Shown: one piece after another, positions 12,214-32,921 of the stretch
How the letters are laid out: each line of letters opens with the position of its first letter
Position numbering within the stretch: position 1 is the first letter of the stretch
Origin: a virus
DNA: 33,210 nt
Strand: one strand, 5' to 3'
Virus record (IMG/VR): IMGVR_UViG_3300044618_001730
Location: 1 to 33,210 of that record
Translations under genes and position numbers: made by a program
Notes under the pieces: generated by a model
Database searches by the model: none
What the model saw: only the letters and a program-made list of their open reading frames with translations
Told to the model about the DNA's origin: nothing

Positions 12214-12236
12214 CCCACCGCCTTTGCGGTGGGTTT
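12214..12236 (+). terminator. hairpin, possible weak terminator
   Basis: CCCACCGC (12214-12221) and GCGGTGGG (12226-12233) form an 8-bp stem with a CTTT loop, followed by only three T. It lies 11 bases after the stop of the preceding gene. The short T tract suggests partial termination or transcript-end protection rather than a full stop. Confidence 0.5.
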
Positions 12237-12283
12237 CCCGGTCGCCAGTGGCGCCGACACTTCAACACCAGAGGAGCATGGAC

Positions 12284-13663
12284 ATGCCTCGCAAGGCACG
12301 TTTTGCCACGCCCGCCGACGCTGAAAGGTGGGCAGTAAACAAGGGCGCCCCGGTTCGCGGATCGGGGCATTCGATCACCAGCGCCACCCGTGGACTGGTG
12401 CGCTTTTGGCTAACCGCGTCTGGCATCCCGTCTGAAAGGGCCGTGCTTTTCAGCGTCGGGCAGATGACCGCCGCATGGCATGACCTCAGCGGCGCCGCCC
12501 TGGCAGCACTGAAGGACGGCAACCCCGTCCCCAGCCCGGTGCCAGCACCCACCCCCACCCCGGCGCGCTTCAAGCCCGAGGACTTCCCCATCCCTGTCAA
12601 GAACGAAAAGGACACTGCACCCGTGAACACGAACGATCACGCCGCCGCCCTCGACGCCCTCAAGCGTATCCTGGCGCCGGATGCCACCCCGCTGGATGAA
12701 AACGCGGTGGTCGAGATTGTCACCCGACGCATGGGCGACACGGTGAAGGCTGCCGTGAACGACGCCGCCGACAAGGCCCGGATGGACCTCTCCGACCTAC
12801 TTGAGGAAGCGCGCTCTATCGTGAACGGCGCGCCCCGCGTGCTGCGGATCGAGGTGGCCGGGCGTATTAAGGAAATGCCCGCCACGCCCCGGCATTGCAT
12901 GTTCGACACCTTCCTGGCGATGGTTATCGCCAGCCGGTTGACGGGTGGGCAGATGCCTATGCTGGTCGGCCCGGCGGCTGGTGGCAAAACCACCGCCTGC
13001 GAGCAAGTCGCAACGGCCCTGGGCCTGCCCTTCTATTCGGACGGCGCCTTGACCGGGAAGCATGAACTGACCGGCTATAAGGACGGCGCCGGGCAGTATC
13101 ATACCACCCCCTTCCGCCAAGCGTTCGAGCATGGCGGCGTCTACCTCATGGACGAATTGGATCGGTCGGACCCTAGCGTTCCGCTGACCCTCAATTCTGC
13201 CCTCGCAAACGGGTTCATGTCTTTCCCCGACCGGGCCGAGCCGGTGCGTCGTCATCCGGACTTTGTCCCCATCGTCGCGGCCAACACCTTCGGGCGGGGC
13301 GCCGATCGGATTTATGTCGGCGCGAACCAACTGGACGGCGCGACCATTGACCGCACGGCCCCGCTGGTTTGGGATTATGACGAAGTGCTTGAGCGCGCCC
13401 TTGCTGGTGATGACGCCTGGGTGGCTTACGTCCAGGCCGCGCGCAACGCCGCCTTCAAGCACAAAATCCGCCACATCATCAGCCCTCGCGCGAGCATTGG
13501 CGGCGCGAACCTTCGGCGGGTTGGGCTGCCCTTCGATGTGGTGGCCGAGGCTTCCATCTGGAAGGGCCTCGACACTGAGCAGCGTGCCCGCATCATCGCG
13601 GATATCCCCGACAACGTGACGCGCCGGGCTCAGGCAGCCCGCGTGATCCTGGCAGCGGAATAA
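12284..13663 (+). CDS. MoxR/CobS-like AAA+ ATPase
   Basis: About 459 residues. Residues 1-80 form a small unknown domain, followed by a Pro-rich linker (about 82-96), a helical region, and an AAA+ domain from about residue 200. Walker A is GPAAGGKT (229-236); Walker B is VYLMDELDRSD (286-296). 'AANTFGRGADRIYVGANQLD' with an R after it carries the sensor and arginine-finger region of the AAA_5/CobS group. Such ATPases remodel partner complexes and usually pair with a VWA-type protein; the next gene lies 5 bases downstream and is the likely partner. The second ATG (12284) is spaced 7 bases from AGGAG and is preferred over the first (12278). Confidence 0.8.
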   Translation: MPRKARFATPADAERWAVNKGAPVRGSGHSITSATRGLVRFWLTASGIPSERAVLFSVGQMTAAWHDLSGAALAALKDGNPVPSPVPAPTPTPARFKPEDFPIPVKNEKDTAPVNTNDHAAALDALKRILAPDATPLDENAVVEIVTRRMGDTVKAAVNDAADKARMDLSDLLEEARSIVNGAPRVLRIEVAGRIKEMPATPRHCMFDTFLAMVIASRLTGGQMPMLVGPAAGGKTTACEQVATALGLPFYSDGALTGKHELTGYKDGAGQYHTTPFRQAFEHGGVYLMDELDRSDPSVPLTLNSALANGFMSFPDRAEPVRRHPDFVPIVAANTFGRGADRIYVGANQLDGATIDRTAPLVWDYDEVLERALAGDDAWVAYVQAARNAAFKHKIRHIISPRASIGGANLRRVGLPFDVVAEASIWKGLDTEQRARIIADIPDNVTRRAQAARVILAAE

Positions 13664-27838: not shown

Positions 27839-28094
27839 TGGCGTCTATCACTGCGAGTGCGATCCGCATGGCGACAATGCCAAGTGCGACAGGCCCTGTG
27901 CGAAACCCTGGGGAGTGCCGATGAAGAACGAGCGCATCACTACCGACTTTGCTGAGGGCTGGCGCGCTGGCTTTGAGGCAGCACGAGTGCAGCTTGAGGC
28001 TGCGGCAGAGAGGGCAATGGCCGACTACAGGTCTGTGATGAAGGCGATGAGGGCGGTGGAAACTCCTGCCCCGACGAGAAAGGAAGAAGGATGA
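27831..28094 (+). CDS. hypothetical protein with Cys cluster and helical tail
   Basis: An 87-residue protein with an N-terminal cluster 'YHCECDPHGDNAKCDRPC' that could hold one metal ion, then a helical part 'AEGWRAGFEAARVQLEAAAE'. Overlaps on both sides (8 bases and ATGA). The 'F-A-E-G-W-R-A-G-F-E-A-A-R' helix is a common phrase in small phage proteins. Function unknown. Confidence 0.55.
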   Translation: MTDGVYHCECDPHGDNAKCDRPCAKPWGVPMKNERITTDFAEGWRAGFEAARVQLEAAAERAMADYRSVMKAMRAVETPAPTRKEEG

Positions 28095-28315
28095 GCGAAC
28101 ACGAGACGGCCAACTGCTTGGCTGACTTCAGCGAGACGGACTTCAAGAAGTTCGCCACGAGGATCGGGGATCGGTGGTCCTTCACCCTCCCCGTTCATGA
28201 GTTGCAGAACATTGACGACCTCCTGCCAGACCATGTGCTGTCGGTGGAGAAGGTTCCCCTGTCGCCCGGTGGGGAGATCATGCTGGGCAAGCTGACGAGG
28301 AAGAAGGGAGTTTGA
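28091..28315 (+). CDS. hypothetical protein
   Basis: A 74-residue acidic protein with 'SETDFKKFATRIGDRWSFTL', 'PVHELQNIDDLLPDHVLSVE' and a Lys-rich end. ATGA overlap at the start. It immediately precedes the Acb2/Tad1-like gene (2 bases apart) and shares its transcript. No family was recognised. Confidence 0.55.
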   Translation: MSEHETANCLADFSETDFKKFATRIGDRWSFTLPVHELQNIDDLLPDHVLSVEKVPLSPGGEIMLGKLTRKKGV

Positions 28316-28317
28316 CT

Positions 28318-28566
28318 ATGAGCCATGTCTTTGATGGCGCCCCCGATGGGCGGCAGTCGAGCGACGTGAGTGAGCCTGTGAGCCGCTTTAGGCCCCGTTA
28401 CCGGGCGCTTACCGACAGCGAAAAGGCTTTGCACGATGCCATCAAGTCGAAGGCTTCCGAGCTTGAGGCTTTGATCGAACAGGTGAAGCCTGGGCGCTAT
28501 CGCTCCCTTGGCATCACTGCCCTTGAAGAGAGCATTATGTGGACGGTGAAGGAGCTTACTTCCTAA
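28318..28566 (+). CDS. Acb2/Tad1-like protein (candidate anti-CBASS/anti-Thoeris nucleotide sponge)
   Basis: An 82-residue protein with a disordered first 23 residues, then the two-helix hairpin of the Acb2/Tad1 domain: 'RYRALTDSEKALHDAIKSKA' and 'YRSLGITALEESIMWTVKEL'. Family members bind cyclic oligonucleotides (Acb2) or cyclic ADP-ribose signals (Tad1) and so block CBASS or Thoeris defence. Tyr28 and Lys43 have the 15-residue spacing I recall for the binding pair Tyr11/Lys26 of the Pseudomonas phage protein. ATG at 28318 follows AAGGGAG by 7 bases. Family membership is from remembered patterns; activity is untested. Confidence 0.65.
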   Translation: MSHVFDGAPDGRQSSDVSEPVSRFRPRYRALTDSEKALHDAIKSKASELEALIEQVKPGRYRSLGITALEESIMWTVKELTS

Positions 28567-28931
28567 TGAACGTGTTTGAAGAACAGGCCAAGTTCATGCT
28601 GGCCTGCGGCCAGACGGTCGGCAGGATGAACGAAGAGCAGACCGCGCTCTATGTCGGTCTCATCATGGAAGAGATGACGGAACTCTTCGAGGCTGTCGCA
28701 GAGAGAAACAAGGCAGAGATTTTTGACGCACTTCTCGACATCATCGTCGTGTGCATTGGGGCAGGACACTCTGCCGGTCTTCCGCTTGAGGCTGGATGGA
28801 GAGAAGTGATCCGGTCTAATATGGCAAAGGTTGATCCTGAGACCGGCTTTGTGAAAAAGCGCGCCGATGGAAAAATCTTGAAGCCTGAAGGATGGACGCC
28901 TCCTAGGCTTGCGGCACTCATCGAAAGCTGA
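28566..28931 (+). CDS. MazG-like nucleotide pyrophosphohydrolase
   Basis: A 121-residue all-helical protein of the MazG / PRA-PH group. 'YVGLIMEEMTELFEAVAERN' supplies the E-E-x-x-E metal site (Glu35, 36, 39), and 'IFDALLDIIVVCIGAGHSAG' gives the D-x-x-x-D pair (Asp54, Asp58). The C-terminal 'NMAKVDPETGFVKKRADGKI' and 'LKPEGWTPPRLA' are typical of phage members. It would hydrolyse (d)NTPs or related signals to monophosphates. TAATG overlap with the Acb2-like gene suggests linked expression. Confidence 0.8.
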   Translation: MNVFEEQAKFMLACGQTVGRMNEEQTALYVGLIMEEMTELFEAVAERNKAEIFDALLDIIVVCIGAGHSAGLPLEAGWREVIRSNMAKVDPETGFVKKRADGKILKPEGWTPPRLAALIES

Positions 28932-28959: not shown

Positions 28960-29631
28960 ATGAAACCTGAGACGATCAAGGCGATCATCGCCACACGCGA
29001 ACAGGTCGGCAGCCTGGGCAAGTCTGCCATGAACCCGCACGGGCGGTACAAGTACGTGTCCATCGACACCTACTATGAGAAGGTTGCCACGACCGCAGCC
29101 AAGAACGGCCTGTCTTGGATCGCCTCTGAGACTGCCTTCGAGGTGATGGCTGACGTGGGGAAGACTGGCGTCATCAAGGCCACCTACGACGTGGCGCTGA
29201 TGCACGAGAAGGGCGACTACATTCCGAAGTTCAGCACCCTCACGATCATCCATCCGATCCAGGGCGCTCAGACCGTTGGCTCTGCCATGTCCTACTTGGA
29301 CAAGGTGTTCATGCGTCAGTTGTTCTCCGTCGCCACTGGCGAGAAGGACAGCGATGCTGACGAGACCAACCCGGCTGATATCATCGGGATCGGCACGGAC
29401 AGCCCCAAGAAGGATGCTGCCCCCGAGGTCAACACGGAGCAGGCCGAGAAGGTCTTTCTGGAGTTTGTCCCGATCTGTGCCAGCCTCGAAGACCTGAAGC
29501 TCTTCTGGTCCGAGAACTACAAGGCACGCAACCTCCTCAAGGAACACAACCCCGATGCGCTGAAGCGCGTCACCGCCGCTTTCACCAAGCGGAAGGAAGA
29601 ACTCCAGAAGGAATCCAACGATGGAAACTAA
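28960..29631 (+). CDS. erf: ERF family single-strand annealing protein
   Basis: A 223-residue recombinase. The ERF core is visible: 'YKYVSIDTYYEKVATTAAKN' (residues about 28-47), 'GLSWIASETAFEV', 'FSTLTIIHPIQGAQTVGSAM' and 'SYLDKVFMRQLFSVATGEKD' followed by an acidic 'DADETNPAD' hinge. The C-terminal third is a separate helical domain. It anneals complementary single strands made by the exonuclease at 23273 and cooperates with the SSB-like protein that overlaps its end. AAGGAGAG stands directly before the ATG. Confidence 0.88.
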   Translation: MKPETIKAIIATREQVGSLGKSAMNPHGRYKYVSIDTYYEKVATTAAKNGLSWIASETAFEVMADVGKTGVIKATYDVALMHEKGDYIPKFSTLTIIHPIQGAQTVGSAMSYLDKVFMRQLFSVATGEKDSDADETNPADIIGIGTDSPKKDAAPEVNTEQAEKVFLEFVPICASLEDLKLFWSENYKARNLLKEHNPDALKRVTAAFTKRKEELQKESNDGN

Positions 29632-29896
29632 GAAGTATTACGGCGGCGCGCTCTTCATCAACCGCAATAAGACCAACGAGAAGGCTCCTGACCTCAGCGG
29701 CGACGTTGAGATCAACATGGAGACGCTGAAGGTTCTGGTCGAACTGGCCAAGAAGAACGAGCCGCTGAAGCTGCGGATGGCTGCCTGGGTCAAGGAAGGC
29801 AAGAGCGGCAAGTTCTATTCGGTCCAGCTTTCCGAGAACAAGCAGCCCGCCAAGCCCGCCCAGAAGAACGTCTTTGACGACGACATCCCCTTCTGA
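29621..29896 (+). CDS. SSB-like protein with DDDIPF tail
   Basis: A 91-residue protein ('GGALFINRNKTNEKAPDLSG', 'LKLRMAAWVKEGKSGKFYSV', 'QLSENKQPAKPAQKNV') with a compact beta domain and a flexible Pro/Lys linker. It ends in DDDIPF, the hexapeptide by which bacterial SSB recruits RecO, PriA and other repair proteins. The K-T-x-x-K-A-P-D-x-x-G and A-W-V-K-x-G-K-x-G-K-x-Y blocks are familiar from phage ssDNA-binding proteins encoded next to ERF. It starts 11 bases inside the ERF gene. Confidence 0.75.
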   Translation: METKKYYGGALFINRNKTNEKAPDLSGDVEINMETLKVLVELAKKNEPLKLRMAAWVKEGKSGKFYSVQLSENKQPAKPAQKNVFDDDIPF

Positions 29897-29904
29897 GGTA
29901 GGTC

Positions 29905-30369
29905 ATGCTCATCCGCCTGGACGAGTTAGAGATTGCGATAGGCCAAACAATCGGCCTGAAGAGGCACGAGAACGGCCAGAACCGCAGGACGACTCGCGGG
30001 CTGGCGGCTGAGTATTCCCTGGACTTCCATACTCTCGGGGCCTTTGGAGAGCTTGCTGTTGCGAGAATCCTGAACGTCTATCCGGGGTTCATCCTCAACA
30101 CATTCAAAGGCCCCGACATCGAACCCGACGTTCAGGTTCGCACCACCAGACACAAGAACGGCAGGCTCATCATGACCGATGATGACCCGCCCTTTCACAG
30201 ATACGTCCTTGTGACTGGTGATGCGCCTGAACTGGAGATCGTTGGCTGGATGTGGGGATACGATGGCCAGGAAAAGAAGTGGCTGACTGATCCGAAGAAC
30301 AACAGACCGCCCGCCTACTTCGTCCCCAGGGATGCACTCAAGCCTATCGAGACGCTGAATGAGGGTTAA
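29905..30369 (+). CDS. putative PD-(D/E)XK-fold protein
   Basis: A 154-residue protein. 'LGAFGELAVARILNVYPGFI' (helix with Glu), 'GPDIEPDVQVRTTRHKNGRL' (Asp followed by V-Q-V-R) and 'HRYVLVTGDAPELEIVGWMW' follow the order of a nuclease fold: Glu helix, Asp strand, Gln/Lys strand, beta strand, with Q-V-R in place of E-x-K. This may be a nuclease or a substrate-binding relative. Its place after ERF/SSB and directly before an HNH-like gene supports a recombination role. It overlaps the next gene by 11 bases. Confidence 0.55.
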   Translation: MLIRLDELEIAIGQTIGLKRHENGQNRRTTRGLAAEYSLDFHTLGAFGELAVARILNVYPGFILNTFKGPDIEPDVQVRTTRHKNGRLIMTDDDPPFHRYVLVTGDAPELEIVGWMWGYDGQEKKWLTDPKNNRPPAYFVPRDALKPIETLNEG

Positions 30370-30616
30370 GAACACAAAGCATCTGACGTGGGTCAGGACG
30401 CAAGGCTGTCTGATTTGCGAAAGATGGGCACAGGCACACCACCTAATGTTTGCCGAGCCTTCGGCTATGGGCAGAAAGAGTGGTGATGATTGGGCCGTTC
30501 CTTTGTGCGCCGACCATCACACAGAACTGCATGCTTATGGGGATGAGAAGACATGGTGGGACCTGAAGGGTGTGGACCCGGTGGAGTGGTGCAAGCGACA
30601 CGGGTCAAAGCAATGA
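30359..30616 (+). CDS. HNH-like protein (DUF968-like)
   Basis: An 85-residue protein with 'TQGCLICERWAQAHHLMFAE' (C-x2-C and His-His), 'DDWAVPLCADHHTELHAYGD' (C-x2-H-H, H) and 'WWDLKGVDPVEWCKRH'. This is the ββα-metal layout of small HNH proteins such as DUF968/Ref-like recombination nucleases. The first Cys pair and the later Cys/His would hold zinc; the His-His is the catalytic candidate. It begins inside the previous gene and overlaps the next start as ATGA. Confidence 0.75.
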   Translation: MRVKNTKHLTWVRTQGCLICERWAQAHHLMFAEPSAMGRKSGDDWAVPLCADHHTELHAYGDEKTWWDLKGVDPVEWCKRHGSKQ

Positions 30617-31883: not shown

Positions 31884-32921
31884 GAGAGTACCAGAAACGG
31901 AAAGCGAACCAGACGAAAAAGAAAGTCCCAGGACGAGTGAGTGAGTCTAGGCGGCGCGAGAGTTCCACAAGCGACGAACGAACCAACATATGAGAGAGCG
32001 CCATCTCGCGTGAGTGAACCATCATGGCTGAGAGTTCCACAGACGAAAAGTGAACCAAGGTACGAAAGAGTCTCAACCACTGCGAGTGAACCACTGAGCA
32101 TGAGAGTGCCTAGTGTGGAGAGTGAACCATTGAAAGCGAGAGTGCCGCGTCGTCGGAGTGAACCACGCTACATAAGTGTGCCACCGTAGCAGAGTGAGCC
32201 AGTGCCTAAGATAGCTTCATGGTAATCGAGCGAGTCAAACCGTAGGAGAGTTCCATATGGCCCGAACGAGACTTGGAATGCGACAGCGCCATAGCACGGA
32301 TCGAACCATGACTTACGAGAGTTCCAGTTTTCGGGAGTGAATCAATTGACCAGAGAGCGCCAAAAGGAGGGAGTGAACCAACCATAGGGAGAGTTCCATC
32401 GTTCGAGAGTGAACCGCACTGACAGAGAGCGCCAACGTTCCTGAGTGAGACATGAGACCAGAGAGTTCCACGGTCTAAGATCGAACCACTACCAAGGTAG
32501 AGTTCCAGAAGACTGGAGTGATCCATTAGGCGTAAGAGTACCATCCCGCCGGAGTGAACCATCGTCGTCAAGAGTTCCATCGTAAGTGAGTGAACCACTG
32601 GTTCGGAGAGTTCCATTACGAAGGAGTGAACCAAGTCTAGCGAGAGCGCCTAGGCCCCTGAGTGAACCATCCGGGTAGAGAGTTCCGCACCCTGAGAGTG
32701 AACCATCACAGTGGAGAGTTCCATAGACAATGAGTGAGCCATTGAGGCCGAGAGTTCCAGCGATCACGAGTGAACCATCGCAGACGAGAGTTCCATAATC
32801 GACAAGTGAACCACTGATGCAGAGAGCTCCAATTTGAGGAAGTGATCCAAGTGCCTTGAGAGTACCATCGGAGTTGAGAGAGGCATCACGTCCGAGAGCG
32901 CCATGAAAAGCGAACGAAAGG
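31884..32921. repeat. 18-base periodic array of 58 alternating ten-base words with variable spacers
   Basis: Fifty-eight words of 10 bases alternate strictly: type B (GAGAGTTCCA and variants, 29 copies) and type A (GAGTGAACCA and variants, 29 copies). Spacers are 8 bases in 53 of 57 cases; the exceptions are 31912-31920, 31949-31957 and 32489-32497 (9 bases) and 32292-32298 (7). From 32498 to 32912 the rhythm is exact for 23 steps. All 57 spacers differ. Eleven A words and ten B words match their consensus exactly. Common B variants are GAGAGCGCCA and GAGAGTACCA. Reading the minus strand in one frame gives a hexapeptide repeat G-S-L-x-x-x-G-T-L-x-x-x, interrupted by the length changes and one TAG at 32168-32170. 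Confidence 0.93.

Follow-up and report, generated by a model that had tools for sequence, protein, structure and literature searches.

The 82-residue protein encoded by the acb2-like gene is, in our judgement, very probably an Acb2-family sponge for CBASS nucleotides, carried as cargo in a fixed operon slot, with the adjacent MazG-like enzyme working independently of it. The window, which is the whole stretch of DNA that was analysed, is a 33,210-base virus record of a tailed phage, with the portal and terminase genes on the minus strand and the primase/helicase and exonuclease genes on the plus strand. The features of interest lie toward its right end:

28091..28315, plus strand: 74-aa ORF directly 5′ of acb2 (tblastn synteny in six related contigs, L087-L092)
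28318..28566, plus strand: acb2-like gene, 82 aa, predicted alpha-hairpin nucleotide sponge (PF24729, PDB profile, Foldseek)
28399..28446, plus strand: codons 28-43, Tyr28 to Lys43, candidate cyclic dinucleotide site (alignments)
28489..28545, plus strand: codons 58-76, PGRY-x(5)-TALEESIMWT motif opening helix 2 (alignment of 56 relatives)
28566..28931, plus strand: mazG-like gene, 121 aa, predicted all-alpha NTP pyrophosphohydrolase (PF01503, phrog_671, DR2231)
28960..29631, plus strand: ERF-type ssDNA annealing protein, same operon, 3′ of mazG (PF04404 57 bits, phrog_155)
29621..29896, plus strand: probable ssDNA-binding protein (phrog_18154, E 2e-5)
30359..30616, plus strand: HNH endonuclease-like / DUF968 (PF06147 49 bits, phrog_96)

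The acb2-like reading frame runs from the ATG at 28318 to the TAA at 28564-28566 (coding 28318-28563), 2 bp after the end of the 74-aa ORF, and the mazG ATG shares the last A of that stop codon, giving a 1-base overlap, TAATG. Searches of Pfam, PHROG, PADLOC and NCBIfam returned no family match for the 74-aa ORF. Elsewhere in the window, a 479-aa protein (12224-13663) matches phrog_249 “porphyrin biosynthesis” (moron category), and off-diagonal blastn matches at the right end (31958-32852) mark imperfect repeats of ~100-270 bases with 67-75% identity.

Family, fold and conserved residues of the 82-residue protein

The first-pass annotation had read the 82-residue protein as a two-helix protein of the Acb2/Tad1 type, and the profile search it proposed bears this out: the protein matches PF24729 (Acb2_Tad1_hairpin) at 55 bits (E 9.5e-15, cut-off 27), and a whole-record search of the window finds a PF24729 match at 54.5 bits. 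By sequence profile it is a clear member of the family, with a match far above chance. Against the PDB, single-sequence phmmer placed Acb2 (E 1.6) under an amino-acid transporter (0.05), a profile of 12 relatives reached Acb2 at E 7e-4, and a profile of 56 relatives reached Acb2 8h2j at 4.5e-5 and “Acb2 homolog 43” at 3e-4, with weaker matches to Tad1 (0.004-0.006) and T4 Vs.4 (0.06); the ten best PDB matches of this last profile are nucleotide sponges only. Identity to characterised Acb2 is ~20-27%, and neither PADLOC nor NCBIfam matched the 82-residue or the MazG-like protein. Purifying selection acts on acb2, with dN/dS of 0.04-0.15 and synonymous sites near saturation except in the comparison with L004, a second species of the group.

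AlphaFold2 predicts two helices, at residues 33-53 and 60-81 (mean pLDDT 88.9), that is, a hairpin without further domains, as in Acb2. The best Foldseek hits were Acb2 and Vs.4 in the PDB (probability 0.8-0.99, E >0.1) and Acb2/Tad1-domain proteins in the viral library BFVD, with no E-value below 0.006 in either. The alpha-hairpin is a common shape, and in VIA-align Acb2 was not separable by Z from unrelated helical hairpins, many of which scored equally high. Since neither structural comparison discriminates, we base the family claim on sequence profiles and residue register, and not on the fold alone.

That register is observed directly. In the alignments Tyr28 falls on Tyr8 of T4 Vs.4 and Tyr11 of Pseudomonas-phage Acb2 (8h2j), and Lys43 on their Lys23 and Lys26, respectively, the tyrosine-to-lysine spacing being 15 residues in all three, and the two positions earlier proposed to match Acb2 ligand residues are correct. 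Lys43 is invariant across the 56 relatives, as are Arg60, Thr67, Glu70, Glu71, Trp75, Val77 and Lys78, and Tyr28 is conserved in at least 90% of them. The base-stacking Phe82 of T4 aligns with Thr81, at an alignment end that is itself uncertain; a C-terminal base-stacking aromatic is reported for T4 only and is not known to define the Acb2 family. In T4 Acb2, the Y8A exchange disrupts the binding of cyclic dinucleotides (PMC12657218). Motifs like PGRY-x(5)-TALEESIMWT are also found in 9ptq (“Acb2 homolog 43”) and in Tad1; this stretch is a candidate cyclic trinucleotide/trimer interface, for which we infer a role in ligand contact.

The same evidence bears on the choice of ligand. A Tad1-like function, in which the sponge mainly sequesters the cyclic ADP-ribose signals of Thoeris, a role the first-pass annotation had also considered, would agree with the hairpin domain in common and with the profile matches to PDB Tad1. 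Against it, loops that are conserved and a beta-sheet region at the N terminus, which is absent from Acb2, contribute to the gcADPR pocket of Tad1 (PMC12043709). That N-terminal beta-sheet domain is missing from the predicted structure of the 82-residue protein, in which AlphaFold2 places no strand of three or more residues over the full length, and the alignments of the 56-relative profile to PDB Tad1 span the second helix only. We consider this function very unlikely indeed; with the Tad1 N-terminal beta-domain absent, the ligands are more likely to be CBASS-type cyclic di- or trinucleotides than signals of Thoeris.

The relatives of acb2 occur in varied settings. Our IMG/VR scan gave 331 confirmed stretches with short-linker Acb2-like proteins, a large set to add to a family of sponges that has been called relatively rare (PMC11722364). 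In other phages they adjoin terminase, head-tail, tail, holin, RuvC or ssb genes, and proximity to terminase, head-tail adaptor, tail and holin genes is what one would expect had the hairpin been re-used outside immune signalling, for instance as a structural or regulatory phage protein. This is, however, highly improbable: Tyr28, Lys43, Arg60 and Thr67 are conserved in the 56 relatives despite their differing location, and the scattered locations suggest cargo over a fixed virion role. The sponge interpretation, as a reading of sequence, is well supported. The closest relatives in genome bins (L017, Phenylobacterium, 85%; L018, Rhodospirillaceae, 78%) hint at alphaproteobacterial hosts.

Other annotated phages carry further examples. 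In the Curtobacterium phages AddiRose and Yotsuba (L173 2468-3532, L174 2498-3438), a sponge gene (PF24729 match, tested in AddiRose) is immediately followed by a gene annotated as “nicotinate ribosyltransferase”, without a Pfam match, which is possibly another nucleotide-metabolism neighbour of sponges. Paenibacillus phage Xenia has an Acb2-like protein (L180 2474-2677) adjoining a serine recombinase and HicAB, and in several Paenibacillus larvae phages the Acb2-like protein bears the label “phosphomannomutase”, probably a misannotation.

The MazG-like enzyme and its association with acb2

The gene joined to acb2 by TAATG was rightly called a nucleotide pyrophosphohydrolase. Its 121-aa product scores 41.3 bits against PF01503 (PRA-PH; cut-off 21.3) and 117 bits against phrog_671 “nucleotide pyrophosphohydrolase”, while PF03819 (MazG) scores 16 bits, under the cut-off of 22. 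The closest solved relative is DR2231, an NTP pyrophosphohydrolase (PDB, E 4e-8), the predicted structure is all-alpha, and the EExxE and downstream acidic metal-binding residues are intact, with E35, E36, E39, D54 and D58 invariant in 34 relatives. A suggested clearing of stringent-response nucleotides is unsupported: the one cyanophage MazG that has been assayed prefers dGTP/dCTP and neither binds nor hydrolyses (p)ppGpp (PMC6850273), and DR2231 is an NTP pyrophosphohydrolase. On the cyanophage precedent, trimming of nucleotide pools is the default reading of MazG. Since Atd1, a MazG-like phage protein, reportedly counters TIR-based defence (review PMC10419184), an anti-defence role for the enzyme may still be entertained.

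Whether the two genes form a unit is best judged from the relatives. In one form of the coupled pair suggested by the first-pass annotation, acb2 and mazG would be a functional anti-defence pair that blocks two nucleotide-based alarms together: the sponge would hold the cyclic signal, and MazG would reduce the levels of linear products, precursor NTPs or (p)ppGpp. The TAATG coupling and the Atd1 report speak for such a pair, as does the acb2-mazG segment itself, over which the window and L004 are 91-99% alike, with less likeness in most stretches on either side. The synteny, observed directly by tblastn, points the other way. Six contigs from the window's phage group (L087-L092) keep an 87-aa ORF, the 74-aa ORF, mazG, ERF and SSB, with acb2 absent at precisely the junction of the 74-aa ORF and mazG. 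In relatives without acb2, the gene consistently next to mazG is the 74-aa ORF. In L091 the flanks of the empty slot are 83-90% identical to the window, and whole-record searches of the six contigs, which may be fragments, found no PF24729 gene elsewhere. The 5′ part of mazG in these contigs is also more diverged at the acb2 junction (62% in L091), a pattern that looks as if recombination had exchanged acb2 together with the start of mazG.

Both genes were present at the fetched loci only in the window, L002, L003 and L004, of which L002 and L003 are the window's own species (99.8-100%). A search of 49 acb2-bearing virus records for four MazG-type families found an adjacent mazG in a single record, L003, leaving 48 of the 49 without one; about five others have a MazG-type gene away from acb2. 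With ~6 of 49 records having MazG and two adjacent places among ~60 genes, ~0.2 adjacencies would be expected against one seen, a rough estimate, independent lineages being too few for formal statistics on the recurrence.

Outside the window's group, across IMG/VR and annotated phages, the linkage was found only in Squashvirus-related Microbacterium phages. There, SallyK (L166 12489-13183) has mazG immediately followed by a PF24729 gene with a TGATG overlap, an independent adjacency that counts in favour of a pair; the gene order is, however, opposite to that of the window, and the MazG proteins belong to separate PHROG families (phrog_3301 in SallyK, phrog_671 in the window). SallyK gp57, the Acb2-family protein, is annotated merely as hypothetical. 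In its relatives RubyRalph and OneinaGillian, acb2 lies between ssb and ruvC with no mazG at the acb2 locus, and in Squash an endonuclease VII gene separates mazG and acb2; mazG is the dispensable gene of the two in these Microbacterium phages.

The genes thus do not stay together across lineages as a conserved two-gene system would, and because there are both acb2-less alleles and acb2 loci without mazG, each is dispensable to the other. They share a kind of neighbourhood, that of recombination/ssDNA genes, and with both common in the same early region it is plausible that they came to adjoin once or twice by chance. The “pair” is probably two neighbours, and joint action of the kind first proposed is improbable. 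A bind-and-clear anti-CBASS module, with MazG translationally coupled to Acb2 at least twice independently and clearing what the same alarm nucleotides are made from or broken down to, strikes us as very doubtful. Given the L004 likeness and the recurrence in Microbacterium phages, some shared advantage of adjacency may exist; adjacency alone is insufficient to call a neighbouring MazG gene a counter-defence partner.

Proposed function and comparison with known sponges and hydrolases

For the preferred reading, an independent Acb2-family sponge, we infer the oligomer, the ligand, the anti-CBASS effect and the MazG substrate by analogy. The alpha-hairpin would assemble into a hexamer, as in solved Acb2, and take up the cyclic di- and/or trinucleotides that CBASS enzymes of the host produce; with the signal soaked up, the killing effectors would stay off and the infected cell would be spared. 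The gene would be a small, mobile piece of anti-CBASS cargo, gained at, or lost from, a fixed slot in the early recombination/ssDNA operon, and the MazG-like enzyme would most likely trim (d)NTP pools for phage replication independently of the sponge. Carrying this sponge could turn into a disadvantage where the host has Panoptes (PMC12657218), and the window's phage group offers a natural comparison of phages with and without acb2.

Acb2 of Pseudomonas phages (PDB 8h2j, 8ixz, chain name p26) has in common with the 82-residue protein the alpha-hairpin, the tyrosine and lysine 15 residues apart in the region of helix 1, and PGR-(W/Y)-x(5)-T at the start of helix 2; it differs by an inter-helix linker longer by ~24 residues. 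T4 Acb2 (Vs.4, PDB 7uq2) shares the threonine and Met-Trp of helix 2, but is without the Gly-Arg and also has a longer linker. Among the solved chains, the closest build is that of “Acb2 homolog 43” (PDB 9ptq, 76 aa), with a similarly short linker and GR-x(2)-S-x(3)-T-x-LEE in helix 2, although the first helix aligns only partially. Tad1 (PDB 7uav, 8kbb) resembles the protein in its second helix, with the R...T..E...MW motif, and is set apart by its N-terminal beta-domain, without which the 82-residue protein would have no Tad1-type gcADPR pocket.

On the side of the hydrolase, residues 42-120 align with DR2231 (PDB 2yeu, 5i0m), the RADGK-LKPEGW tail included, while the N-terminal part differs. 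Atd1, set beside the window's MazG by description, is likewise a phage MazG-like enzyme adjoining a nucleotide-signal gene; the neighbour of Atd1 is a nucleotidyltransferase, whereas that of the window's mazG is a sponge gene.
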